Source of the DNA: Balneolaceae bacterium
GTDB taxonomy: Bacteria; Bacteroidota; Rhodothermia; Balneolales; Balneolaceae
Reading direction: 5' to 3'
DNA: 64,000 nucleotides
Assembly: GCA_017640605.1 (NCBI GenBank)
Contig: JAEPQH010000005.1
Location: 124,001 to 188,000, forward strand
Under the pieces are notes generated by a model that made no database searches, was not told where the DNA came from, and saw nothing but the letters and a program-made list of their open reading frames with translations. The position numbers and the translations under genes are program-made. The stretch's first letter is position 1; each line of letters opens with the position of its first letter. This document shows, piece by piece, positions 1,033-16,581 of this stretch.

Positions 1033-2958
1033 TTACTTAGGTAAGGTAAATAGCCACGCTTCTTGGTTAACGGTTTCTCTGATCGACATTAGGTAACTAA
1101 CCGCTTCGTCAAAAGTAGCGAAGCCTTGATATGCCACATAATTGAAACGGCTTTCGGGATGAAATAAGATTCGTGTATCATAGCCTTCATCCATTAACGA
1201 TTCATTAAATCGATTTGCATTATTTCTTACGATGAATGAGCCCCCAATAACGAAGAACCTTTTATCTTCGCTTTCATAGGATTCCTGTTCCTCTCCTCCA
1301 TTCTGCTGTTGTTCTAAATATTCATTTAGACTAAACGCACGTGGCACAAGAACCATAAGTTCTGGGTTTTCAACCGGCATGCTTAACTCATCAGCTAGTC
1401 GCTGCTGTTCCGGAGTAAGTTCATTGCCCTCTGATGATTCATTTTCGTTATTCACAGTATCTGCTTCATCTACAACTTCCTCGGGCATTTCGTCTTCCGA
1501 ATCACCTTCAGTATTATCAGTTGAGGTATCCGGTGATTCTACTGGAGCTTCTTCTGAAGTTTTAGAAGGCTCCGTTTTCATTTCTTGATTCTCGTTAGAA
1601 ACAAAATCATCTAAATCTTCCAGTAGTTTTACAGGAGTTGTTAGCAGATTGTTATTGAAGACTGCATCCAGATTGCTTCTCAAATAGTCTCTTTCGGCAT
1701 CTAATAAGGTTTGTTTAGTTGCAAACTTCTCATTTGCTCGTTGTTTAACTGTTTTTTCGAGTGAAGCTTGAACTATAATAATTAGCTCATTTTCCAGATA
1801 ATCGTTGGAATTGTATCCAAATAAATATCGAAGTCCGAAGAACCATGGTGGTAAATCTTTTAAGATCGGAATTCCTCTTCGAACTTTTGATTCTTCGGTT
1901 CTGTACAATCCTGCTATCGTTGTTGCTTCCCCGTCTAATAAAAGTGCCTGCGTGGATGCTTGTTGCTTATTGATGATTGTACTTACCGCATCTGGTTGAG
2001 CTGAAGATCGTTCAACTTCTATCTCTAGATGGATAAATGAAGTATCATTAACATCAATTACTGTTGGTACAACTGTTAATATTGTTCCTGTGCTAAAAAA
2101 CTGGTCGGTTACGTTTCCTGCAATATCTCGCTGTTTTATCGAGAAATCCTGACCAACTTGAACCCGACCTTCCTCGCCATCTAATACTTTTGTAAATGGC
2201 GTTGCAAGAACTTCTCCTAAGTTATCAGCTTCAAAAGCGTTAAATAGTGCCTGAACGCTAATTGCGTTGTCACCTTCACCAAATGGGCCGAGGTTCACTA
2301 GCGCGTTGAATACATTTTGTGAGACATTTGCCGCATTAAAAGAATTTATGGATACAAACTGATCATTAAATGTTGTGTTGGGCAAGCCTTCACCGGCTCC
2401 GGCTCCTTCTCCACCAACAATATTATTCAATTCCGTTGGTACAGTACCTCGCAATGTCGACCAATCAACCCCAATTTCCTGTAAGGCTCGTCGGTTACCT
2501 TCAAAAAAGGTAGCGTTTATACGAATTTCTCGAGTATCTAAATTGATTTCACCTTGCTGAGCCTGAGTTTGTTGCTGCTCTTCAGGCGTTGCTAAGGAGG
2601 ATAATGGCACAATTTCGACGAATTCATCGGATTCGATTAAAGTTAGATTCTTCAGCCTAAGAATAAAATCTAAAGCATCTTTCCAGTGCATAGCCGGTAG
2701 CGTAACACCTATAGAACCGGTTGTTTCGGTTTGATCGATTATGAATTTGTTTTGAAACTCTTGGTAAAATTGGTTGATAACTTCGATGGCTTCTTCGTAG
2801 CTGGTACTTCGGTCGAAGGCTACGATTTCATCCGGATTGGTGTACTCTCTCGGATATTCATCCTGAGCATTAACCATTACTGGCATGCACAAAAATGATA
2901 AAACCGCGATTATCGCAATTTTAAGCTTCCGTAAATGATATAATTGCTGAATTTTCAT
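1033..2958 (-). CDS. pilQ: type IV pilus/type II-like secretin with C-terminal SPOR domain
   Basis: This is the outer-membrane secretin through which the filament passes. An N-terminal signal peptide (about 1-31) is followed by an STN/secretin-N-like domain (about 45-120) and the secretin beta-barrel domain (about 145-400). That domain has typical blocks such as LDGEEGRVQVG, ATTIAGLYR and RGIPILKDLP, and ends in ELIIIVQ. An acidic, low-complexity linker (about 430-545) leads to a C-terminal SPOR domain (about 563-641) with FFVIGGSF and AWLFTLPK. SPOR domains bind denuded septal glycan. At 641 residues it has few N-domains compared with proteobacterial PilQ, and SPOR may replace the AMIN domain that anchors PilQ to peptidoglycan. 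It is the last gene of the filament operon and its ATG overlaps the PilO/P stop by 4 nt. Secretin and SPOR calls are strong; the role of SPOR is inference. Confidence 0.88.
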   Translation of the reverse strand: MKIQQLYHLRKLKIAIIAVLSFLCMPVMVNAQDEYPREYTNPDEIVAFDRSTSYEEAIEVINQFYQEFQNKFIIDQTETTGSIGVTLPAMHWKDALDFILRLKNLTLIESDEFVEIVPLSSLATPEEQQQTQAQQGEINLDTREIRINATFFEGNRRALQEIGVDWSTLRGTVPTELNNIVGGEGAGAGEGLPNTTFNDQFVSINSFNAANVSQNVFNALVNLGPFGEGDNAISVQALFNAFEADNLGEVLATPFTKVLDGEEGRVQVGQDFSIKQRDIAGNVTDQFFSTGTILTVVPTVIDVNDTSFIHLEIEVERSSAQPDAVSTIINKQQASTQALLLDGEATTIAGLYRTEESKVRRGIPILKDLPPWFFGLRYLFGYNSNDYLENELIIIVQASLEKTVKQRANEKFATKQTLLDAERDYLRSNLDAVFNNNLLTTPVKLLEDLDDFVSNENQEMKTEPSKTSEEAPVESPDTSTDNTEGDSEDEMPEEVVDEADTVNNENESSEGNELTPEQQRLADELSMPVENPELMVLVPRAFSLNEYLEQQQNGGEEQESYESEDKRFFVIGGSFIVRNNANRFNESLMDEGYDTRILFHPESRFNYVAYQGFATFDEAVSYLMSIRETVNQEAWLFTLPK

Positions 2959-3818
2959 CGAACTACCTCCAGGGTAACTACTTCTTCTATGCCGCCTACG
3001 TCCAGGTTAAAGGTAGCTTTTTTATTTTGTAAATCTATAGAAACTAAGCTACCCAGATATACACGATCACCTTGTTTAAGGGAAATTATTCTTCCGGTTT
3101 GATCTCTAACAAAAACACGGTTATCTGTCATACCAATTAGCCGAGAGCCTCTGATATCAGTCAACCCATTGACATTGGCTTGAACAGTTGGTTGAATTAA
3201 AGGAAAGAGTGGATTGTAATTTGAGATTTCCTCATCCAAATTGATCGAAAAATTTCTTCCTAACGAATCAAATAGGTTCGTTTTCTCATAATAACTTTCG
3301 AGCTCGAATGAGAAGTTTACGGTATGCAAATCATCATCTTGTCGCGCTGGTGAAATTGTTAGATTACTTACTTTATTAAGAAGCTGAGAATGTTCAATTC
3401 GATTTACAAAATCAGTAAGTGCATCATATCGACCAAATCCTGCGATAGAAGATTCAATGATCCCGTATTCGCTACTTGGAATAGAGTCTGTATAAATATA
3501 ATCGTAATACATTTGGTTACCACCTTCGGCATTCACTCGGTTCAAGAAATCGAATACATCGTCTGGCTTGTTAGAACTAAACAGGATCTTATCGTAGTTC
3601 GATATAACCTCTAATGCAGCCTGATACCGTTCGTTTAATTCCGTGAATTGTATGTTGATGTCTTCTTTTGAGGCTAAATCGTTTCGCTTAGCTACCAATG
3701 AATTTTCCAAATCTTCCACCTTCGATTCTAAAAAGAATTTCGAATATGAAAAACCCAAACCTAATATTAAAAACAAGGTAACAAGCAAAATTAGGGTATT
3801 TCGTATAGCGTATGACAT
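2955..3818 (-). CDS. PilO-PilP-like fusion, pilus alignment subcomplex
   Basis: This 287-residue inner-membrane protein looks like PilO joined to PilP. One transmembrane helix (about 7-27) is followed by a coiled coil (about 30-75) and a ferredoxin-like PilO region (about 85-180). The C-terminal 75 residues form a small beta domain with VRDQTGRIISLKQGDRVYLG and a final VTLEVVR, as in PilP/GspC homology domains that bind the secretin. In proteobacteria PilO and PilP are separate, and PilP is a lipoprotein. Here no lipobox is needed because PilO's transmembrane helix serves both. The start overlaps the PilM/N stop by one base and the stop overlaps the secretin start by 4 nt, so the three proteins are likely translationally coupled. 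The PilO part is recognised by topology and context, the PilP part by motif. Confidence 0.7.
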   Translation of the reverse strand: MSYAIRNTLILLVTLFLILGLGFSYSKFFLESKVEDLENSLVAKRNDLASKEDINIQFTELNERYQAALEVISNYDKILFSSNKPDDVFDFLNRVNAEGGNQMYYDYIYTDSIPSSEYGIIESSIAGFGRYDALTDFVNRIEHSQLLNKVSNLTISPARQDDDLHTVNFSFELESYYEKTNLFDSLGRNFSINLDEEISNYNPLFPLIQPTVQANVNGLTDIRGSRLIGMTDNRVFVRDQTGRIISLKQGDRVYLGSLVSIDLQNKKATFNLDVGGIEEVVTLEVVR

Positions 3819-5587
3819 TAATTGCCTATAAGGTCCCCCATACCTTGTAAGTTCTGTGGTGTATAAACATCGGTATTTGCAACAATGCGATTCACGTAAT
3901 AGCTAAAGTTGTACACCTCAACTTCACGAATTTCGCTGCGAGTAACGTCGAGCAAAGTTGCATCGGCAAACAATTCAGCAACCTGTCCAATTCGATCTTG
4001 ATAACGAGCTATTCCCTGTATTTCAAGTGTATTTGGCTCATCACCCGGTGTTACATTTGTCAGCCAAACTCCACCAATGTTATCAATACCAGCGTTAATG
4101 GTGTTCAAATTTACCGACCACGTGATAGAATTTTCTGCCAAGGTATTCATCAAAACAAGATTATCTTGAATTTGACTAAGCTGACTACTAATTCTGTTGT
4201 AGTTATTTACTGTTGGAGCATACGATTGAAGTTGGGTATCAACCAATGAGATTTCAGATTCCAACCGATTAATCTCCGCAAAATGTTGTTGCCACAAAAA
4301 ATTGACTCCCGGAAAAGACATCATAATCAGAATTAATAACAAGATACCATGCCATTGAAGCTTAAAGATCTTTTGCCGATCAATCACATATTTAGGCAAG
4401 AAAGAAATTCCTGAAAAAACTTCTTTCTTAAAGTTCGTTGCTGCCCATGCTGTACCGATAGCCGTTGTAAATGGAGCAATGGAGTCTAAAGTGTGCTCCT
4501 GCGGATCGAATAACTCTTCAGCAAACTCAAATTCTGAAACTTCAACATCAGGAAAGCGCTCTTTAAAAAACGATATACCCTCTTCCCCCAACGAGTTATT
4601 GCATATTATTAATCGGTCGAGGTTTGGAACTTCGCCTGTATCAAGTTGGAAAAGAATTTTTGAGAATACGGTATTCAAAAACTTTCTTGAACGAACACCT
4701 TCCGTAATAATCGGTGATACTAGCCAGAGTTTGTCACCTTTCATGAAAATTACGCGACAATTAAGCTCTGAAAACTGAAGAATACAGGTGATTTTTTCAT
4801 CTTCGAGTTCATAATTGGCTTTAACCATTGCCAATAAAATCGACTCATCCGGAAGAATTTCACTGATAAAGATTTTCCCTCGGTATAAGGTATCTACTCT
4901 GTCAATTAACGAAAGTAGTATGGGCTGATCATCGATACTAGATAGTACAAGAGCGCCATCTTCACGCACGCCATAGGAATAAAAATCAGGATCTTTTGGA
5001 TCTCCATATAATGCTTCCAGTCGATCGTCGATAATGACTTTTAGATCTTTCTTCTTTACCTCGTTAAAATCGACATCCTTTAATACCTGAAAAATGGCAG
5101 TACCGGCGGGAATATTTAAACCAAGATCAACGCGTTTGGGGTCGATGTTAGAAAGGAAATTAAAAACCTGAATCTCATTTGAAACCGGACCTTCGGTTTC
5201 GTCAATCATGTCTACATCTACGATCTCATCCCCTTTTTCTAGCTCGTCGAGCTCGAGATCTATATCATCTCCAATTTCACCTAATATATCATCGTCAAGA
5301 TCGCCTAGGATATCATCATCAATACCGCTAAGGATGTCATCATCAAGATCAATCTCAGAAGTAGAACTATCTTCATTTAGTGCAGAATCAAGATCAAAAA
5401 CATCGTCGCTAGTTTCTCCGAAAACATCATTAAGCTCTTTTTCCTCTGTGGGTTTATCGAGCTTTTCTAATAGTGAAAACCGATCCACCCGTACAAGCTG
5501 AACTTTCTTATCCTTAATTTGGATTACAGCAAATTTGAGGCTCTCCGCTTCAAGTACAATACCGGTATATAGTTTACCTGACTTCAC
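3818..5587 (-). CDS. PilM-PilN-like fusion with acidic octapeptide repeats
   Basis: The first 400 residues look like a cytoplasmic PilM-type actin-like domain (TGIVLEAESLKFAVIQI at the N-terminus, AIGTAWAA near 377-383). A single transmembrane helix follows (about 412-432), then a coiled coil (433-475) and a periplasmic PilN domain ending near 589. In other bacteria PilM is soluble and clamps the PilN N-terminus, so fusion hard-wires that contact. An insert at about 50-130 is strongly acidic and holds three tandem 8-residue repeats, DDDILSGI, DDDILGDL and DDDILGEI (82-105). The PilM part lacks clear actin-type phosphate loops to my eye, so ATP binding is uncertain. The gene lies 3 nt downstream of pilT in transcription order. 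The PilN half and the topology are the best supported points. Confidence 0.72.
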   Translation of the reverse strand: MKSGKLYTGIVLEAESLKFAVIQIKDKKVQLVRVDRFSLLEKLDKPTEEKELNDVFGETSDDVFDLDSALNEDSSTSEIDLDDDILSGIDDDILGDLDDDILGEIGDDIDLELDELEKGDEIVDVDMIDETEGPVSNEIQVFNFLSNIDPKRVDLGLNIPAGTAIFQVLKDVDFNEVKKKDLKVIIDDRLEALYGDPKDPDFYSYGVREDGALVLSSIDDQPILLSLIDRVDTLYRGKIFISEILPDESILLAMVKANYELEDEKITCILQFSELNCRVIFMKGDKLWLVSPIITEGVRSRKFLNTVFSKILFQLDTGEVPNLDRLIICNNSLGEEGISFFKERFPDVEVSEFEFAEELFDPQEHTLDSIAPFTTAIGTAWAATNFKKEVFSGISFLPKYVIDRQKIFKLQWHGILLLILIMMSFPGVNFLWQQHFAEINRLESEISLVDTQLQSYAPTVNNYNRISSQLSQIQDNLVLMNTLAENSITWSVNLNTINAGIDNIGGVWLTNVTPGDEPNTLEIQGIARYQDRIGQVAELFADATLLDVTRSEIREVEVYNFSYYVNRIVANTDVYTPQNLQGMGDLIGN

Positions 5588-5590
5588 CTA

Positions 5591-6832
5591 TTAGTAATTA
5601 ACCTCGCTTAAAAGTTGCACCATTTTGGTTTTATTGTTCGAGTAATTTAAGGCAGATTCTTTAGAAATCTTACCTTCATCAAACAACCTTTTTAAATCCT
5701 GTTCCATGGTATTCATACCACGCTCTTTGCCTTCCATCAGCATTTGATAAATCTCACCTATATTATTGTTTCTTATTGCTGCTTTAATGGAAGAATTTGC
5801 TAATAATACTTCTTTAGCAAGGACGCGTTTACCGTCTAACGAGGGTACTAATTTCTGACTTATCACGCAGGTTAATACATCGGCTAAGCGAGCACGTACT
5901 CGATTTTGTTCTTCGCTTGGCATTTCACCTAAAATACGCTCGATACTTTCCATAGCTGATGAAGTATGCAAAGTGCCAAAGGTTTTATGTCCAGAATCCG
6001 TAATTTCAAGAGCTGTCATTATAGTTTCGGGATCTCTAAGCTCACCTATTACAATGATATCCGGATCTTGCCGCAAGGCTTGAATTGCCCCTTCTTTAAA
6101 AGAGTGTACATCGCTACCAATTTCACGATGACGTACTACACAGCGAATGGGTTCATGAATTAATTCCACCGGAGATGCAATGATTACGATATGAGCATCA
6201 ACCGTACGGTTATTTGCATCAATAATGGTGTCTAAGGTAGATGATTTACCAGAGCCGGTAATCCCGGTAATTAATGTTAAACCGTATTTGTAATACTTTA
6301 AACTTACAGCTTTTGCTACTTCTGCGTGAACACCCAGCGACTTAAACGGACGGATGTTATTATCGATCTTTCTCATATTCAAGCCAAGATGATCCAGATC
6401 GAAATACATATCTGCTCGAAATCGTTGGCTCTTACCTTTTCCAAGATTTATTGAGTAAGAAAAATCCAGGTTTTTCTTTTCGAGTAATGTTTTGCGTTGT
6501 GTAGCTAATAAAACATTATGCAGTAAAACATCTGTTTCCAGATACTCTAACTTTTTAGGAAGCTTAAGCGGGTTTTTATCTCCAAAAATTCGATACCAGA
6601 TTTTTCCGTTACAACCGGGGCCGCCTAAATCAATATCCGAAGCACTTACTTTTATCATATTTACAAGAAAAGAATCCAGCGCTTCTTTAAGGTCTACTCG
6701 CAGGCTTATGTCGGCATTTTCAATAAGATCTCCGATTCTTCGATGCAATTCGGGTCCTCGCGCAGTCTTGGGAATGCGATCCAAAATCGGCTTTATAAGC
6801 CCCGATATTCTGTCTAAGTCAATTGCCGCCAT
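5591..6832 (-). CDS. pilT: PilT-like pilus retraction ATPase
   Basis: This hexameric secretion ATPase probably powers filament retraction. Visible motifs are Walker A GITGSGKSS (190-198), Walker B DPDIIVIGELRDPE with the catalytic Glu264, and the His box DSGHKTFGTLHTSSA (279-293). The C-terminal PilT signature region includes GMNTMEQDLKRLF. The tetracysteine motif of PilB is absent, which favours PilT. The Asp box normally reads as a variant of T-I-E-D-P-I-E; here it is VIIASPVEL (216-224), so the first Glu and the Asp are replaced by Ala and Ser while the last Glu is kept. At 413 residues it is longer than usual because of an N-terminal extension of about 60 residues. Cotranscription with the alignment genes is likely, with 3 nt to the next gene. 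Confidence 0.88.
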   Translation of the reverse strand: MAAIDLDRISGLIKPILDRIPKTARGPELHRRIGDLIENADISLRVDLKEALDSFLVNMIKVSASDIDLGGPGCNGKIWYRIFGDKNPLKLPKKLEYLETDVLLHNVLLATQRKTLLEKKNLDFSYSINLGKGKSQRFRADMYFDLDHLGLNMRKIDNNIRPFKSLGVHAEVAKAVSLKYYKYGLTLITGITGSGKSSTLDTIIDANNRTVDAHIVIIASPVELIHEPIRCVVRHREIGSDVHSFKEGAIQALRQDPDIIVIGELRDPETIMTALEITDSGHKTFGTLHTSSAMESIERILGEMPSEEQNRVRARLADVLTCVISQKLVPSLDGKRVLAKEVLLANSSIKAAIRNNNIGEIYQMLMEGKERGMNTMEQDLKRLFDEGKISKESALNYSNNKTKMVQLLSEVNY

Positions 6833-6930: not shown

Positions 6931-7434
6931 TTACCAATTGGAATCATTCAATAATCGTTTTTTAAGATTCAATAATTGAATGTTCATATTACTTATTTTT
7001 CTCTGTTGAATTTCGATGATATTTTTTGTGAATATATTGAATAATTTTTCTGGCTTTTTTCTGAAGAAGTTTAAAGCTTCATATCGTTCGTACCTAAGTA
7101 AAATGCACTCACCTTCTGCCGTAACTTTGGCCATTCTACTGTTTTTACTAAATAAAAAAGCTTCACCAAGAAAATTTCCTTCCGAAAGCGTTGCCAACTG
7201 TATGTTATCTTTCCAAATGGCCACTTTACCATCTGCTACCAAATAAGCCGAATTAACGTATTCTGATTCGTTTAAAATGATATCATCTGCTTGAAATTTT
7301 TCTTCTATTCCTAGCTGTAGAAATTCCAGCACATCTTCATAATGAAAGTTTTTTAAGAGTAATGGTGGCTCTTTTAAAAACTTTTTTATGTAATCTGCCA
7401 TCCATTCTTTCGACGGCTCGTTACCTGCATTCAT
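6931..7434 (-). CDS. cyclic-nucleotide-binding domain protein, no DNA-binding domain
   Basis: The 167-residue protein is a single cNMP-binding beta-barrel (about 25-135), with the sequence AYLVADGKVAIW and the phosphate-binding-cassette-like segment LSEGNFLGEAFLFSKNSRMA. It then has a basic helical tail (about 135-167). There is no helix-turn-helix, so it is not a Crp-type transcription factor. The canonical cassette has R-T/S-A after G-E-x-A/L; here the corresponding residues are RMA, so nucleotide binding is possible but unproven. It sits between pilB and pilT with spacers of 69 and 98 nt, on the same strand. A role as a second-messenger-sensing adaptor on one of the two motor ATPases is inference from context. 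Confidence 0.75.
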   Translation of the reverse strand: MNAGNEPSKEWMADYIKKFLKEPPLLLKNFHYEDVLEFLQLGIEEKFQADDIILNESEYVNSAYLVADGKVAIWKDNIQLATLSEGNFLGEAFLFSKNSRMAKVTAEGECILLRYERYEALNFFRKKPEKLFNIFTKNIIEIQQRKISNMNIQLLNLKKRLLNDSNW

Positions 7435-7503: not shown

Positions 7504-9279
7504 TCAATCGTCGATGGTTGATGCAATTATTTCTTCAATAGTTGTGATTCCTTCTTTAATTCGTTCGCGACCTGAACCTCGTAGTGTTAACATACCTTGG
7601 CTTACCGCTAATTCTTTAATTGAATTCTCATCAATATCTCCACCTGCATCTAATATCATTTGCTTTATTTCTTTAGAAAAGAATAAAGCTTCGTGTATTG
7701 CAGACCGTCCTTTATAGCCACTTCCGCTACAAACATCGCATCCCACCGCTTTATAGAAAGTAGTAGTTTCAATTTCTTCATCAGTAAAACCTAGACCTCT
7801 TGCGATTTCGGGATGCGGTTTAAACTCTTCTTTACAATCTTTGCATAACCTTCTAATTAATCGCTGAGCCATTACTAAATTAACCGCATTCGCAATAAGA
7901 AATGGTTCTACGCCCATTTTAAAAAGTCGCGATACTGCACTAGGCGCATCATTGGTGTGCAACGTTGAAAAGGTTAAGTGACCTGTGTTCGCAAGTTTGA
8001 TAGCGATTTCTGCTGTTTTTAAATCACGAATCTCACCCACAAGTACAATATCAGGGTCATGCCGCAGGATACCACGAATACTTTGATCGAAGGTCATTGC
8101 CGTGGATATTTTTAACTGCCTTGCCCCTTCAATAATATATTCTACCGGCTCTTCAACGGTTAGTACGTTTTTTGTGGGGTCAATCACATAATACAAGGCT
8201 GCAACAAGCGTGGTTGACTTACCACTACCAGTAGGACCTGTGATAATTACGATGCCAGAAGGCTGTTGAATCGACTTAACAAAATTATCTTTGGCTACTT
8301 TCTGTAAACCAAGTAAATCCAAATCGCGGATTACTTTTCTATCATCCAGAATTCGAATTACAATCGACTCAAATTTGCGATCGTATTGATTTCCTACAAT
8401 TGGCATGATGGAAACACGGTATCTGATATTGTAACCATCTATTTGCCGTTGAATAAATCCATCTTGTGAAGAATCCCGCTCAAAGCGATCTACGTTTCTG
8501 GTTTTATCCTTAATAACCGCCGAAATAGCCTCTGGTTTTACATTTTTCTGCTGATACCAAAGCTGTAGCTTACCATCAATTCTAAATCGAATATCCGTAG
8601 AAGAAGGGCCGCTTGGGATAATGTGCAAATCACTAACACCTTGCCGAACAGATTCAACCAGCATCCCTTCAACCAACGAGTTGAGCATACTTTGGTTAAT
8701 CTCAGCATCGATTTCTTCCTCATCAATATTCTCTTCGTCGGCTTCAATATTGGTTTCTTCGTAATCGATCTCTTCAAGAAGATCCAGAAACTCATTTTTA
8801 CGCTCGTAAACTTTACCAAGAATTTGCTCAACCAGGTCGTAATTACAGTAAACTAATTCTGTTTGCTTAAAATTGAGTTTATTGATAATTGTTTGCAGAT
8901 TCGGATCGGATGGATCAGCAGCTGCGATTGTTAAATCACCACGAGAAATTTGATACGGTAACGCTTTATGATGAACCAGCTCGTCTACCGTTTCTTCCGG
9001 GAGTTTTTCAACATAATTTTTGATGGTGTCAATAATCTCATCAGGAACAATCTCTACATCGGCTAGCACTTCCCTAAATGCATACACTTTAGAGATTTCG
9101 CGCATGATGAGATGCCGATTCAGACCAATATCCTGGAATAGTATTTGACCTAATCGTCTGGAACTACCTGACGGTTCCTCTTCTAAAATTTGAAGAGCTT
9201 GAGTAAGCTGCTCTTCACTTACTACTCCTTTGCGTACAAGGATATCGCCAATATGTCGACGTATATTGATTTTACCCAT
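7504..9279 (-). CDS. pilB: PilB/GspE-type assembly ATPase with MshEN-like N-terminus
   Basis: This is the extension motor of the filament. Walker A is GPTGSGKST (348-356), the Asp box VEEPVEY (375-381), Walker B DPDIVLVGEIRDLK (408-421) and the His box NTGHLTFSTLHTND (431-444). A tetracysteine metal site is formed by CKDC (479-482) and CDVC (514-517), the feature that separates PilB/GspE from PilT. The N-terminus (about 8-70) has two helical repeats, HIGDILVRKGVVSEEQLTQA and RLGQILFQDIGLNRHLIMRE, resembling the MshEN/GspII_E_N domain that in some relatives binds cyclic di-GMP. A strongly acidic linker lies at about 168-193. At 591 residues it is normal for the family. It is followed 69 nt downstream by the cNMP-binding gene. 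Function is confident; nucleotide sensing is inference. Confidence 0.93.
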   Translation of the reverse strand: MGKINIRRHIGDILVRKGVVSEEQLTQALQILEEEPSGSSRRLGQILFQDIGLNRHLIMREISKVYAFREVLADVEIVPDEIIDTIKNYVEKLPEETVDELVHHKALPYQISRGDLTIAAADPSDPNLQTIINKLNFKQTELVYCNYDLVEQILGKVYERKNEFLDLLEEIDYEETNIEADEENIDEEEIDAEINQSMLNSLVEGMLVESVRQGVSDLHIIPSGPSSTDIRFRIDGKLQLWYQQKNVKPEAISAVIKDKTRNVDRFERDSSQDGFIQRQIDGYNIRYRVSIMPIVGNQYDRKFESIVIRILDDRKVIRDLDLLGLQKVAKDNFVKSIQQPSGIVIITGPTGSGKSTTLVAALYYVIDPTKNVLTVEEPVEYIIEGARQLKISTAMTFDQSIRGILRHDPDIVLVGEIRDLKTAEIAIKLANTGHLTFSTLHTNDAPSAVSRLFKMGVEPFLIANAVNLVMAQRLIRRLCKDCKEEFKPHPEIARGLGFTDEEIETTTFYKAVGCDVCSGSGYKGRSAIHEALFFSKEIKQMILDAGGDIDENSIKELAVSQGMLTLRGSGRERIKEGITTIEEIIASTIDD

Positions 9280-9302: not shown

Positions 9303-10631
9303 TTAGATGCCTGAATTAGGTTTAATAACAGCCGATTCTGATGATACAACGGTAATTCCAATTAGTGAGATCATGATAAACAAATTTATAGTATCAATTA
9401 CAGATTGCATCTTATAAGTGGTTTGAATTTCGTAATACTCGGCAAGCTGCTTTGCATTTTCCCTAAGCGCACCGGACTCGGCACCTAACCTAAATCTACT
9501 AATAGCTGTTTGAGTAAATACACCGGTTTCTTCGATACTTTCAATCAAACCGGCACCATCTTTAAGCATCTTTTTTATTGCAACTTCTTTTATCTGTTTT
9601 TCCATGTAGGTGTTTCTACAAGCTTCGGATGCTACTCTAATCACTTCAATATTTTGTCCTGACCCACTGTAAAGAGTGTAGAATACTCTTGAAAAAATCT
9701 CGATACTCGTTTTATGAAGTAAATCCCCAATTACAGGTATTCTAATAATCACCCTGTCAACAATTAGCTTTCCTTTTGATGTGTTTACGAACCAAACAAA
9801 CCCAACAATCGGAGCAATAAATGATATTAGCAACATCACCCAATTATCTCTTAGCCAGTAACTTAGGTCAAGTGTAGATTGTGTCATTGGAGGTAAGTCT
9901 ATACCCATTTCCACAAATAATTCAGCTGTTGAAGGAAATATATAACCTACATAAAATAATACAACGCCAACAACAGCAAATACAGTTACTGCCGGCATCA
10001 TTAACGATCTCTTTAAATTCTTTTTGAACTCTGCATCACGTTCCAGGAATTTTGCAGTGCTTTCAAATACCAGTGCCATGTTACCGGAAGTAGAAGCAAC
10101 ACTTAACATGTAAGCAGCAAATTTACCAAATATGGGCTCATGCTTACCATAAACCTGCGAACCCTCTTTACCGTCTTTAAGATCTTTTTGAATTTCTTTA
10201 ATCACCTCTTTCATCCTCTTGTTGGTAGTATCTTCTATTAGAAGATTTAGGATTTCATCAAAGGTGAGCTGTTGTTTTAATAAGTCGGCAGATAAACTAA
10301 TGAAAGAAACTACCTCACTCATCGGAACGCCGCCGGAAAAGTTGAAGAGCTTTTTATTTACACTTACAACCTGATATCCAAGTTTAATGAGTGCACGCTC
10401 CAGTTCTTCTTTGGTATACGCTTCCTGTTCGCCGGCTATGGTTTTTTTACTACCCGACTTTTTTACTTTATATACGAAAGTATACTTTTGATCGAGAGCT
10501 TGTATGCGTAACCCATTTGTTTTCGATAAGCGATCAACCTTGATTTGAGCATCCTTCTTGTTATTTGCTTCAAATTCTGTTTGTACAACCTTACCTTTTT
10601 GTGATACTGCTTTTAAACGAAACTGTGCCAT
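9303..10631 (-). CDS. pilC: PilC/GspF inner-membrane platform protein
   Basis: This polytopic platform protein sits at the base of the filament and is contacted by PilB and PilT. Two T2SSF domains are visible, at about 105-230 and 300-430. Hydrophobic helices lie near 210-232, 262-281 and 412-432. The family's N-terminal small module appears twice: FRLKAVSQKGKVVQTEFEA at the start and a second copy near 52-95 (FVYKVKKSGSKKTIAGEQEA, then ELERALIKLGYQV). That doubling makes the protein slightly long (442 residues). It starts with an ordinary ATG, 24 nt downstream of the second pilin gene and 23 nt upstream of pilB, so one operon is likely. Confidence 0.92.
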   Translation of the reverse strand: MAQFRLKAVSQKGKVVQTEFEANNKKDAQIKVDRLSKTNGLRIQALDQKYTFVYKVKKSGSKKTIAGEQEAYTKEELERALIKLGYQVVSVNKKLFNFSGGVPMSEVVSFISLSADLLKQQLTFDEILNLLIEDTTNKRMKEVIKEIQKDLKDGKEGSQVYGKHEPIFGKFAAYMLSVASTSGNMALVFESTAKFLERDAEFKKNLKRSLMMPAVTVFAVVGVVLFYVGYIFPSTAELFVEMGIDLPPMTQSTLDLSYWLRDNWVMLLISFIAPIVGFVWFVNTSKGKLIVDRVIIRIPVIGDLLHKTSIEIFSRVFYTLYSGSGQNIEVIRVASEACRNTYMEKQIKEVAIKKMLKDGAGLIESIEETGVFTQTAISRFRLGAESGALRENAKQLAEYYEIQTTYKMQSVIDTINLFIMISLIGITVVSSESAVIKPNSGI

Positions 10632-10655: not shown

Positions 10656-11024
10656 TTATTCCCAAACCACATTATCCACTGTTACAACAGCTGTAAATGG
10701 ATCTATTTCTCCTATTGTTGGAGTAGCGAGTAATTTAAAATAACTGCCTGATGTTTCCGAAATTTCAAATGTATTTACTGCCGTAGTTGAATCTAATTGA
10801 ATGTCATTCAAAGTAATATTATTGAAACTACCGCCACCGCCACCCAACATCGGATGCTTCTTGTAATACATTTGGCCAAGTGTAGCTGCTTCCATTACAT
10901 CCTGGCGAATAATATCTTTAATCGATTCGTCTCTTGAATTGCTAAACAATGTAATTGCAACTACTGTCATTATTCCCACAATAACAGTCACAATTAAAAG
11001 TAGCATTAGTTGTTGTTGTCCCAT
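10656..11024 (-). CDS. non-canonical type IV pilin-like protein (second pilin)
   Basis: This 122-residue protein begins MGQQQLMLLLIVTVIVGIM, a two-residue leader followed by polar glutamines and a long hydrophobic helix as in type IV pilins. Canonical pilins have Glu at mature position 5; here that position is Leu. Features shared with the neighbouring pilin are MGQQQL, VGI-x-TVVAI, RQD, a YY or YK block, and a glycine run MLGGGGG near residue 59. The C-terminal beta-rich part differs. It lies between the first pilin and pilC, downstream of a terminator hairpin, so it is probably made at lower level. It may be a minor pilin or an alternative subunit. Pilin identity rests on the N-terminus and operon context. 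Confidence 0.72.
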   Translation of the reverse strand: MGQQQLMLLLIVTVIVGIMTVVAITLFSNSRDESIKDIIRQDVMEAATLGQMYYKKHPMLGGGGGSFNNITLNDIQLDSTTAVNTFEISETSGSYFKLLATPTIGEIDPFTAVVTVDNVVWE

Positions 11025-11040
11025 AATTCATGGCTTAAAT

Positions 11041-11074
11041 AAAAAAAGCTTCTTCAACTGATGAAGAAGCTTTT
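11041..11074 (-). terminator. intrinsic terminator after major pilin gene
   Basis: A perfect 13-bp stem (11044-11056 with 11062-11074) encloses a 5-nt loop. Read on the minus strand it is followed by a run of seven U. It lies 22 bp past the stop of the first pilin gene and before the second. It would stop most transcripts after the first pilin and let a fraction read into the machinery genes. Confidence 0.85.
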
Positions 11075-11095
11075 AATGAATTAATCAAATAACCA

Positions 11096-11503
11096 TTACT
11101 GGTTAGTAGCCTGAGTCATATTATCAGGTGTAATAGTTGCAACAATACTAGTTACAGCACCACTAGCTGGAGTAGCAGTAACTACTAACTGCCCAGCAGC
11201 TCTGGTTGTCATTACATAAGAACCGTTGGTGTTAGCTGCAGATAGACCACTGTTAAAAATACTATCTGATGGGAAGGTAATGTTGTTGAAAGTTACAGAA
11301 CTCCAATCGTTACCACCACCACCAAGCATGGTTGGCTTGATGTAATATGCTTGAGCTGAAGAAGCAATTTGTGCTAAGTCTTGTCGAACTGCATCTAAGT
11401 TTGCAGAATCAGCAGCACTTGAGAAGGTATTAATGGCAACTACAGTTGCGATACCAACGATGATTGTTACTAGAATTACGAGAAGTAATTGTTGTTGACC
11501 CAT
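11096..11503 (-). CDS. non-canonical type IV pilin-like protein (likely major pilin)
   Basis: This 135-residue protein starts MGQQQLLLVILVTIIVGIA, then AINTFSSAADSANLDAVRQD, an amphipathic helix, a YYIKPTMLGGGG motif (53-64), and a Ser/Thr/Ala-rich beta domain without cysteines. Cleavage after Gly2 by a prepilin peptidase would expose Gln; Glu5 of classical pilins is missing. It has the strongest ribosome binding site seen in the operon (AGGAGA about 10 nt before ATG), is promoter-proximal, and is followed by a strong terminator. All three suggest high expression. It lacks the disulfide loop of many pilins. I infer that it is the main filament subunit; a pseudopilin role in a type II-like secretion system is the alternative. 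Confidence 0.75.
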   Translation of the reverse strand: MGQQQLLLVILVTIIVGIATVVAINTFSSAADSANLDAVRQDLAQIASSAQAYYIKPTMLGGGGNDWSSVTFNNITFPSDSIFNSGLSAANTNGSYVMTTRAAGQLVVTATPASGAVTSIVATITPDNMTQATNQ

Positions 11504-13062: not shown

Positions 13063-16000
13063 ATGAAACGCCTAGCCCCTTTTTCGGTAATTTTTGTAGT
13101 AGCAATTTCGGTGTACTTAGGATGCCAAACTACAAGCACAAATGATGATGTAACGATATCAGGAAATGTGATCAATGAACTCACGGGAGATCCTATAAAT
13201 CAAGCTATTGTTGAGATTTCAGCTCCTGAAGAATTTGCAGGAACCGCAAAAGTAACCGACGAAAATGGTGCATTCAGCTTTACTGAATTAACAGTAACAG
13301 AGTCGGCAACATTAACTTTATCCATTAAGAAAACCGGGTTTGTTGACAATACCTTAAATGTGCCGGTTTCCGGTGGGTTAGAAATTGCACTAGATCAACC
13401 AATTGAACTTACACCCGTCGAAACCGGTGATGGAGGTGATGGTGGCGACGATGGTGGACAACAAGTTTCTGGCCCATCTGAAGGTGCTGCGGCCATTGAA
13501 CTTGTTAGTATTGCAGAATCATCACTAAACATTAAAGAAACAGGCGGCACCATAAGTACCGAGTTTACGTTCCAAGTTCAGGATTCTGCTGGGCGAAATC
13601 TTGACCTTAACAATGCAGTAATGGTCAACTTTTCAATTGTATCCGGACCTGGTGGTGGCGAAGGAATTGTACCACCAACAGTTAGAACGAATGCTGCCGG
13701 AAGAGCTACCGCAAGTTTATTCTCTGGTAATGTAGCCGGTGTAGTTCAAATACAAGCCGAAATTGTTCGCGAGGATGTAAACCTTACCATTCAGTCCTCT
13801 CCAGTTGCAATTACCATTCATGGTGGGTTTCCAACTCAAGATGGATTTTACCTCACTTCAGATCGTACAAATATTGAATCAAGTGCCTCACAAGAAACAG
13901 AGATCACAGCTAAACTTGTTGATGAATTCAATAACCCTGTAAAACCTGGAACAGCTGTTTACTTTACAACTTCGATTGGATCTATCGAAGGCTCACAACA
14001 AACTCAGAGTAACAACGATGGTGAAGTTACCGTGCGATTTTGGTGCGATGGCAACTTCGGAACGGGCGTAGTTACCGCAACTACTGTTGACCAGAATAAT
14101 CAGCAAATTTCGCAGACTTTAGATGTTGTTTGTTCAAACAGCGAGGCATTGATCGTAGTTAATCCTCCTAATTTTGCTGTTGAGCCTGGCGGAACCCAAA
14201 GTTTTACCGTTACTGTAACGGATGTTTCAGGCCGACCAATGGCTGAAGGCACAGTATTAAATATTGTCGATAATGATGCAAGTTACGATCTCACCGGAAA
14301 TACCAACATCACTATTCCAAACGCAACTTCTACCGGACCGGGAAAAACCGAGTTTGAATTTGTTCTAGAATACTTTGGTAGCGAGACAAACGAGTTAGTT
14401 ATACCCGTAACCGTTACCTCTCCTTCAGGTTTTACTACAACGTTTAATATAAAGGGCAATTCATCTGGTGGTGAAATTTCCGGACCTTCAGAAGGTGCTG
14501 CGGTTATCATTCTCGATTCAATCTCCGAAACTGAACTTAATATTAGCGAAACAGGTGGAATCGTAAACTCTGTGCTTACCTTTCAGGTACAAGATTCTTC
14601 GGGCAGAAATGTCGACATTAATAATCAAGTAACCGTTAATTTTAGCGTTCTTTCAGGTCCTGATGGAGGTGAAGGATTACTACCTGAATCTGTTAAAACA
14701 GATGCTTCAGGTCGCGCAAGCACCAACTTCTATTCGGGTAATAAAGCAGGTGTTGTACAAATTCTTGCTGAAATTGTGCGTGATGATATTGGGCTAACAA
14801 TAAGCTCCAAACCAATTGCTTTAACCATATTTGGTGGGTTTCCTGTTGAAGAAGGGGTTGATGTATTCATGGAAAGAAAAAACCTTGAAGAAGGTGGAGA
14901 AGAGAACATTAATGTTACACTAACCGATGAATTCGGAAACCCCGTAAAACCCGGAACTGCTGTTTCTTTCTCAACAAACTTAGGTACAGTTGCCGGGTCT
15001 GCTTTCACAAACGACCGTGGTGAAGCGTTGATAAATGGTTCGAATCCGGTTTGGTTACGTTGCATTGGTTTAGACGGAAATGGAGCTGCTGGTCAAGGTA
15101 CAGTTACAGCTACAACAACTGATCAAAATGGAAACCCAATTTCTCGAAATATTGATTTCACTTGTAGTGACAGTGAAGCTATTATCTCCTCACCTATAAC
15201 AGAATTCAGCTTAGATGCAGGCGGTAAAATCAATATTCCGTTTACGGTAACCAACCAAAATGGTGGTCCAATGCCAACCGGAACTATAATTCGAGCAACG
15301 GCAGAAGGCTCGGTATCTATTACGGGCGACGATTTCGTTGAACTAGGAAATACTATGCAACCTGGTGATGGATCTACTGAGTTTGAAATTACTGTGGAAG
15401 ATATTGGTAATGCTGATGATGTAATCATTATATCCATTTCTGTTGAAACACCTTTACAGGTAACAACTATCTATAATGATATCAGAGGCAGTAGTTCCGC
15501 TGATGGTGTTAGTGGACCTCCTTCTGGAGCGGCTACTATTATTCTCACCAATATTTCGGATGAGTTCATAAATATTCAAGGAACTGGTGGTACAGTGAAC
15601 AGTACATTTACCTTCCAAGTACAGGATAGTGCCGGCCGTAATTTGGATTTGAATAATCAAATCGAAGTTAATTTCAGCATCTTAGTTGGACCTGACGGTG
15701 GTGAAGGATTATTACCTGAAACGAGTACAACAAATGCTTCTGGAAGAGTGATAACCAATCTTTATTCCGGTACTAAATCCGGTGTTGTACAAATTCAGGC
15801 AGAAATTGTACGTGACGATATTGGCCTTACTATACGATCCCGACCAATAGCAGTCACCATTCATGGAGGCTTCCCGGATGCCGATCATTTTAGTCTTGCT
15901 CCTAACAAATATAATTTTGAAGGATACTCGATCAACGGAAGAACAAATCAGATCACAGCTATTCTTGGTGATGAGTTTAGTAATCCAGTAAAACCGGGAA

Positions 16001-16581
16001 CTGCTGTCTATTTCAGTACAACCGGTGGTGTAATTGAAGGTTCTGCACAGGGCAATACCAATAATCAGGGATTTGCCTCTGTTCAGTTAATTTCCGGTGC
16101 TCGCAGACCCAATGATTCTCAAACTATTGATGGCACTCCATTTCCACGAGATGGTTTAGCTACCATAACAGCCTCAACGGTGGATAAAGACAATCAGTTG
16201 ATCGAAAAATCGGTTAATGTTGTATTCTCAACTTCTGCAGCTTCTATTTCGGCAAACCCAACTACCTTCGATTTGGCACCAGGTGGTGGTGACACCTTTA
16301 CTTACACGGTAACCGATCTGAATGGCAATCCAATGGCGGCAGGAACTTCTATTTCGGTAGATGCAGGCGAAGGAATCGAGCTCACCGGAGATGTAAACTT
16401 AACTTTAGGTAATTACATTTTCCCAGGTCCTGGTGCGACGGAGTTTACCTTTTCAATTCGTGATATTGATGATGATTCAAATGAACCCGCAGATCTTTCC
16501 ATAAATATCACCGTTGTTTCCCCATCCGGAAACGAAACTACACTTACCCCAATAAGTGGTACTCGACGAAAAACATTCTAA
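13063..16581 (+). CDS. surface lipoprotein with three tandem Ig-like (Big-1-type) units
   Basis: The 1172-residue protein has a signal peptide with lipobox-like LGC (Cys21), so it is probably a lipoprotein. An N-terminal carboxypeptidase-regulatory-like beta domain (about 30-115) has the TDENGAFSFTELTV signature. A Gly/Asp-rich linker follows, then three tandem units of about 340-350 residues starting near 134, 469 and 815. Each unit begins GPSEGAA or GPPSGAA, contains TFQVQDSAGRN-like and VNFS-like strands, and has a Big-1-like FGNPVKPGTAV module. Units 1 and 2 carry a cysteine pair around the third module; unit 3 lacks both. Big-1 domains occur in invasins and adhesins, so a cell-surface or adhesive role is likely but not shown. 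A terminator follows. Confidence 0.8.
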   Translation: MKRLAPFSVIFVVAISVYLGCQTTSTNDDVTISGNVINELTGDPINQAIVEISAPEEFAGTAKVTDENGAFSFTELTVTESATLTLSIKKTGFVDNTLNVPVSGGLEIALDQPIELTPVETGDGGDGGDDGGQQVSGPSEGAAAIELVSIAESSLNIKETGGTISTEFTFQVQDSAGRNLDLNNAVMVNFSIVSGPGGGEGIVPPTVRTNAAGRATASLFSGNVAGVVQIQAEIVREDVNLTIQSSPVAITIHGGFPTQDGFYLTSDRTNIESSASQETEITAKLVDEFNNPVKPGTAVYFTTSIGSIEGSQQTQSNNDGEVTVRFWCDGNFGTGVVTATTVDQNNQQISQTLDVVCSNSEALIVVNPPNFAVEPGGTQSFTVTVTDVSGRPMAEGTVLNIVDNDASYDLTGNTNITIPNATSTGPGKTEFEFVLEYFGSETNELVIPVTVTSPSGFTTTFNIKGNSSGGEISGPSEGAAVIILDSISETELNISETGGIVNSVLTFQVQDSSGRNVDINNQVTVNFSVLSGPDGGEGLLPESVKTDASGRASTNFYSGNKAGVVQILAEIVRDDIGLTISSKPIALTIFGGFPVEEGVDVFMERKNLEEGGEENINVTLTDEFGNPVKPGTAVSFSTNLGTVAGSAFTNDRGEALINGSNPVWLRCIGLDGNGAAGQGTVTATTTDQNGNPISRNIDFTCSDSEAIISSPITEFSLDAGGKINIPFTVTNQNGGPMPTGTIIRATAEGSVSITGDDFVELGNTMQPGDGSTEFEITVEDIGNADDVIIISISVETPLQVTTIYNDIRGSSSADGVSGPPSGAATIILTNISDEFINIQGTGGTVNSTFTFQVQDSAGRNLDLNNQIEVNFSILVGPDGGEGLLPETSTTNASGRVITNLYSGTKSGVVQIQAEIVRDDIGLTIRSRPIAVTIHGGFPDADHFSLAPNKYNFEGYSINGRTNQITAILGDEFSNPVKPGTAVYFSTTGGVIEGSAQGNTNNQGFASVQLISGARRPNDSQTIDGTPFPRDGLATITASTVDKDNQLIEKSVNVVFSTSAASISANPTTFDLAPGGGDTFTYTVTDLNGNPMAAGTSISVDAGEGIELTGDVNLTLGNYIFPGPGATEFTFSIRDIDDDSNEPADLSINITVVSPSGNETTLTPISGTRRKTF

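Follow-up and report, generated by a model that had tools for sequence, protein, structure and literature searches.

In canonical type IV pilus systems, the leader of the prepilin blocks subunit assembly until a cut on the cytoplasmic side removes it (PMC10191384, PMC4471445). The prepilin peptidase has been described as a universally conserved part of type IV filaments (PMC4471445) and as one of their five ancestral parts (PMC10191384). Leaders comprise 6 to 26 residues, Glu5 of the mature pilin is almost invariant in bacteria, and canonical pilins with a mutated Glu5 fail to form homopolymers (PMC4471445). MSHA (MSH) loci are devoid of a prepilin peptidase gene, but their genomes carry one elsewhere (PMC6668835), and archaeal pilins, which possess class III signal peptides, often lack Glu5 (PMC4471445). 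In Melioribacter roseus, pilT, pilQ, pilB, and pilC were reported, whereas pilA and pilD were not found, and the authors considered the set probably incomplete (PMC3534657).

We analyzed a stretch of 64,000 nucleotides from a Balneolaceae bacterium (assembly GCA_017640605.1, contig JAEPQH010000005.1), referred to here as the window. It contains a compact minus-strand operon that runs from position 11503 to 1033 and is headed by two pilin genes (Table 1). Judging from sequence comparisons and structural models, we propose, with a probability of roughly 75%, that these genes encode two subunits, one major and one minor, of a type IV pilus capable of retraction and that both pilins are leaderless, being born mature without a prepilin peptidase.

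Table 1. Features of the pil operon in the window
Feature	Coordinates	Strand	Details
Pilin 1, probable major pilin, predicted leaderless type IV	11096..11503	-	135 aa; N-terminus MGQQQLLLVILVTIIVGIATVVAI, also given as MGQQQLLLVILVTIIVGIATVVAINTF...
Intrinsic terminator between pilin genes	11044..11074	-	13-bp stem and T run
Pilin 2, probable minor or second pilin, predicted leaderless type IV	10656..11024	-	122 aa; N-terminus MGQQQLMLLLIVTVIVGIMTVVAI
PilC/GspF-type inner-membrane platform	9303..10631	-	442 aa; PF00482 (E 4e-28)
PilB-type extension ATPase	7504..9279	-	591 aa; Walker A GPTGSGKST intact; PF00437 (E 1e-98), TIGR02538 (E 1e-130)
Cyclic-nucleotide-binding-domain (cNMP) protein, between PilB and PilT	6931..7434	-	PF00027 (E 7e-12)
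PilT-type retraction ATPase	5591..6832	-	413 aa; Walker A GITGSGKSS; TIGR01420 (E 3e-92)
PilM/PilN-like protein	3818..5587	-	589 aa; weak match to PF05137 PilN (E 0.05); otherwise putative, from position and architecture
PilO/PilP-like protein	2955..3818	-	287 aa; single N-terminal membrane helix; putative, from position and architecture, no Pfam match
Secretin, PilQ-type	1033..2958	-	641 aa; PF00263 (E 6.5e-27)

Both minus-strand open reading frames (ORFs) start with MGQQQ, which is followed by an uncharged helix, and share the motif MLGGGG, as a first-pass annotation made from the sequence alone had described. In the 3.74-Mb genome, the sequence ATGGGNCARCARCAR has exactly two occurrences, both at the pilin genes, and its reversed control has none. 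An AGGAG ribosome-binding site precedes the ATG of the gene starting at 11503. In-frame stop codons are located a few codons 5' of each pilin ATG, with no start codon in between, so that a longer leader is impossible for either protein; translation of such a leader from an upstream start was thus ruled out. Nor is there a class III signal peptide, that is, a hydrophilic leader of 6 to 26 residues ending in Gly or Ala: the start codon lies two residues before Gln3, with stops upstream. Residues 1 to 24 of both window pilins and of 100 aligned relatives contain no Asp, Glu, Lys, or Arg. Glu5, a usual but not universal pilin trait, is therefore absent from all 100 aligned rows, in agreement with the first-pass annotation, and the compensating acidic residue that it had proposed to look for was not found in the helix core of these rows. 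Searches of Pfam and NCBIfam provided no name for the MGQQQ pilins, and weak matches to MacB and YdgH were judged to be due to chance. A hairpin followed by a T run separates the pilin genes in all 14 Balneolota loci examined, with a sequence that differs among loci. Considering this conserved position, expression of pilin 1 probably exceeds that of the other operon genes, which suggests that it is the strongly expressed major subunit.

The AlphaFold models of pilins 1 and 2 (mean pLDDT of 92.0 and 88.6, respectively) display a pilin fold, namely, a long N-terminal alpha-helix (residues 2 to 55) followed by a head of antiparallel beta-sheet. Foldseek by itself returned weak matches (best E 0.063), but the result of VIA-align was clear: type IV pilins were the best structural matches for both proteins, with top Z scores of 10.0 and 10.4, and accounted for all twelve top matches of pilin 1. 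These best matches include Thermus PilA4 (Z 10.0, 3.1 Å, 110 residues), Neisseria PilV (Z 9.4 and 10.4), Pseudomonas PilE, and the PAK pilin. Sequence homology of the N-terminal helix to known pilins was detected with a family profile, A5, which matched Geobacter PilA (E 2.9e-4) and Thermus PilA5 (E 0.008). In both the sequence and the structure alignments with solved pilins, residue 9 corresponds to mature residue 6, an offset of 3. Leu8 hence occupies the place of Glu5; Met1, Gly2, and Gln3 are extra N-terminal residues; and Gly2 is found at position -2, as compared to -1 for the prepilin cleavage site. As translated, the helix is about three residues longer than that of a mature pilin. A register in which Met1 is mature residue 1 and Gln5 stands for Glu5 was not supported, given this offset.

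With the whole protein as the query, 39 of the 59 related genomes yielded homologues. In an unbiased set of 103 homologues, found by profile in the phylum sample, the pattern [M/V/L]-G-[Q/S/T]-Q-Q was located exactly at the start codon in 102 cases, and the start codons at this place were ATG (96), GTG (4), and TTG (3). The single exception starts with MANKEL and has Ala at residue 2. A similar MANKE[LI] sequence, with Ala2 and Glu at residue 5, replaces MGQQQ in the second-pilin slot of some Balneolota (at 10520 in locus L053 and 10536 in L064). None of 98 sampled MGQQQ genes has an in-frame start upstream before a stop, and Gly2 is invariant in the 100 aligned rows. The N-terminus is the best-conserved part of the protein: residues 1 to 27 hardly change, in contrast to their codons and to the divergent head, with mean pairwise differences of 15.1 of 27 codons versus 3.6 of 27 residues. 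The MGQQQ feature is thus far beyond chance. The motif is common to Balneolota, Ignavibacteria, Kryptonia, KSB1, Calditrichota, and Marinimicrobia. When named genomes were scanned, at least 423 encoding stretches were retrieved with a pattern that contained MGQQQ and hence cannot by itself show conservation of the motif; the best 80 of these include Balneolota, KSB1, Calditrichota, Neomarinimicrobiota, Kryptonia, and Ignavibacteria.

The window operon contains the extension ATPase, platform, retraction ATPase, and secretin of a type IV pilus machine. As anticipated in the first-pass annotation, PilC, PilB, PilT, and the secretin are encoded downstream, at lower coordinates, and have strong Pfam matches. 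The intact Walker motifs of PilB and PilT lead us to expect both extension and retraction. The gene order pilin-PilC-PilB-PilT-PilM/N-PilO-secretin is kept in loci of other phyla, and the cNMP protein recurs in Balneolota and Marinimicrobia loci. Linkage of MGQQQ homologues to pilC and pilB, a check proposed in that annotation, was observed: most of the loci sampled combine them with the pil machine. Together with the predicted pilin fold, this linkage lends good computational support to the view that the MGQQQ proteins are filament subunits of a divergent class. In a PilC tree, one branch, with a support of 100/100, divides 37 MGQQQ-linked from 27 canonical-linked rows; the tree is unrooted and this branch is long, so it is compatible with, but no proof of, our view that the trait probably arose once in the FCB lineage, together with a distinct PilC clade.

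Several other features of these proteins were recorded. MGQQQ-linked PilC proteins mostly have 440 to 476 residues, as compared to 355 to 425 in canonical-linked ones, and the N-terminus of the window PilC seems by eye to contain two tandem copies of the GspF/PilC N-domain (approximately residues 4 to 46 and 53 to 96). Within its N-terminal half, the PilM/N-like protein contains a stretch of acidic repeats, DDDILGDLDDDILGEIGDDID. In the secretin, a long acidic linker is present, and a C-terminal segment appears SPOR-like by eye, with no SPOR match in Pfam. Near the operon, on the other strand (13063 to 16581), a predicted lipoprotein-like surface protein of 1,172 residues with several Big_1/invasin-type repeats is encoded.

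Three further protein families were identified in 24 related loci and were not found in the operon of the window. They are represented by MG[SH]RELxLTxGA and kin (164 aa, 13 of the 24 loci), MNxGIxxSFIIGG and kin (185 aa, 11 of the 24), and MGRxLxIF or MFGKxSL (approximately 390 aa, 8 of the 24). All three are leaderless, the helix mostly beginning within about 6 residues of the start. Family searches returned weak matches to a GspJ-like protein and DUF4900. Based on position and architecture, these families may represent GspH/I-, J-, and K-like minor pilins.

The Peptidase_A24 profile gave no match at an E value of ≤10 in the source genome (99.84% complete, 34 contigs), as compared to matches in 12 of 14 control genomes; the A24 peptidase of a type IV pilus machine was thus not found in this genome. 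Likewise, no canonical N_methyl prepilin was detected in it (best E 6.5). Among 59 relatives, only 4 have an A24 enzyme above the cut-off, in agreement with a second profile; these enzymes have 220 residues and are encoded within about 1 kb of a canonical prepilin with the sequence EDG↓FSLTELLIVLAIIGILIMIAVP. Similarly, A24 genes in the fetched neighborhoods were mostly found near a canonical substrate. In genomes of other phyla that contain both MGQQQ and a peptidase, Flp, type II secretion pseudopilins, or a canonical pilin were present near the enzyme in L147, L148, L149, and L151, while the neighborhood scan revealed no canonical substrate near it in L150, L152, and L153. Of 394 genomes of the phylum, 130 were MGQQQ positive, 128 of which contain PilC. 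Neither A24 nor a canonical pilin was detected in 112 of the 130, both were present in 15, a canonical pilin only in 3, and A24 only in none. Genomes consisting of one contig and devoid of both A24 and canonical prepilins include G034, G043, G096, G121, G160, G202, and G261. The presence of A24 therefore tracks canonical prepilins and not MGQQQ, and the motif is the same in A24-positive Balneolota (G007, G014, and G025).

Pfam alone can miss A24, since short divergent enzymes in the families f29 and f21 are near or below the cut-off. Several genomes of the phylum had canonical pilins and no Pfam match to A24; on inspection, such enzymes (approximately 160 to 215 aa) were observed at L219, L220, L224, L228, L231, and L232, beside pilins with Ala at -1 (A↓YSLTE and A↓FTLTE). 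We therefore ran on 80 genomes a profile, A4, built from six divergent A24 enzymes and five Balneolota enzymes. It matched all 10 f29/f21 canonical-pilin controls (E 1e-17 to 5e-56), including six outside the profile (G186, G359, G332, G114, G279, and G218), and all three Balneolota controls. In contrast, none of 67 MGQQQ-positive, peptidase-negative genomes matched (best E 0.047, 14.5 bits), and an A24 enzyme overlooked by Pfam was thus discarded as an explanation. Since A4 finds the controls, the absence is calibrated, although it is still an absence, derived from profile searches in assemblies that may contain gaps. Three of the 67 genomes, G245 (L233), G001 (L234), and G164 (L235), contain canonical prepilins but no A24 even by A4, indicating that the enzyme can be missed or lost. 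An operon-encoded peptidase was also considered and rejected, as PilC was the only recurrent polytopic protein among the clustered neighbors of 24 loci.

We suggest that translation of these pilins begins at the effective mature N-terminus, which would make a prepilin peptidase unnecessary. A penultimate Gly permits removal of Met1 by methionine aminopeptidase, and this step would leave Gly-Gln-Gln-Gln. The chain would then be inserted N-in and extracted directly by PilB and PilC. The uncharged polar cap Gln3 to Gln5 may assume the docking and charge-neutralizing role of the pair formed by Glu5 and the N-terminus; it would mark the membrane boundary and supply side-chain hydrogen bonds in the filament core. 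We lean, somewhat less firmly than for the window locus, toward a broader proposal, in which a clade of the FCB superphylum has dispensed with the prepilin peptidase, all its major and minor pilins being leaderless and the Gln cap replacing the Glu5 pairing.

The first-pass annotation had instead taken MG as a leader cut by a prepilin peptidase. A variant of this idea, in which MG is a minimal two-residue leader cut after Gly by a non-A24 peptidase or an A24 relative that has diverged too far, draws on the invariance of Gly2, the sole MANKEL exception having Ala, since Gly and Ala are the residues allowed at -1 of prepilins (PMC10191384). Near invariance exceeds what methionine aminopeptidase needs and suits a Gly↓X cleavage site, and the few genomes with canonical prepilins and no detectable A24 can be read in the same way. 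Nevertheless, we consider it unlikely: known leaders have 6 to 26 residues (PMC4471445), Gly2 is off the canonical -1 position in the register of solved pilins, the motif remains unchanged in genomes that do carry a peptidase, PilC is the only recurrent polytopic membrane protein of the operons, and the divergence-aware profile detected A24 in all 10 f29/f21 controls and in none of the MGQQQ-positive, peptidase-negative genomes. The original claim also conflicts with the missing A24 of the source genome and with the 112 genomes devoid of both enzyme and canonical prepilins.

That the proteins are ordinary prepilins whose normal A24 peptidase is missing from the assembly, or located on an unassembled replicon, would be consistent with the 34 contigs of the source genome and the occurrence of A24 in 15 of the 130 MGQQQ-positive genomes. 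This is highly improbable, and largely refuted by the single-contig genomes among those 112; moreover, A24 follows the canonical prepilins. Weak NCBIfam matches to GspH and GspG would suit another reading, in which the proteins do not build a surface pilus but serve as pseudopilins in a type II secretion-like or some other envelope machine. We regard this as quite improbable: the operon encodes a PilT-type retraction ATPase, as do most of the fetched loci whose flank is long enough, and most of the best structural matches are to pilins that form pili. A type II secretion system would comprise a GspG-K set and GspO but no PilT; here, PilT is present, and N_methyl pseudopilins and A24 were not found in the genome.

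MGQQQ pilins were not described in the literature searched: GQQQLL occurred in no text, and MGQQQ only in an unrelated paper. Nor did we find a paper on type IV pili in Balneolaceae. If leaderless pilins are confirmed, a machine without leader, peptidase, and Glu5 would separate the essentials of assembly from historical accident and render the roles of Glu5, N-terminal processing, and methylation directly testable. It would also tell annotators why whole phyla show pil machines but no pilA or pilD, and would explain the missing pilA and pilD of Melioribacter roseus.

Among known systems, MSHA resembles the present one in that its locus is devoid of a peptidase gene, but here none was found in the whole genome. 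MSH pilins have ordinary leaders. Archaeal pilins often share the absence of Glu5 and retain leaders and an A24 peptidase; in contrast, the machine described here is bacterial, with PilC, PilT, and a secretin. The window pilins resemble the type IVa pilins of Geobacter (PilA), Thermus (PilA4 and PilA5), and Pseudomonas (PilA) in helix and sheet, in helix profile homology, and in structural match, and the parts of the type IVa PilB-PilC-PilT-PilMNO-PilQ machine are encoded in one operon. They differ from type IVa pilins by the Gln triplet at the N-terminus, by the lack of a leader and of Glu5, and by a genome in which no prepilin peptidase was detected, and MGQQQ-linked PilC proteins form a group of their own against the sampled canonical-linked ones.
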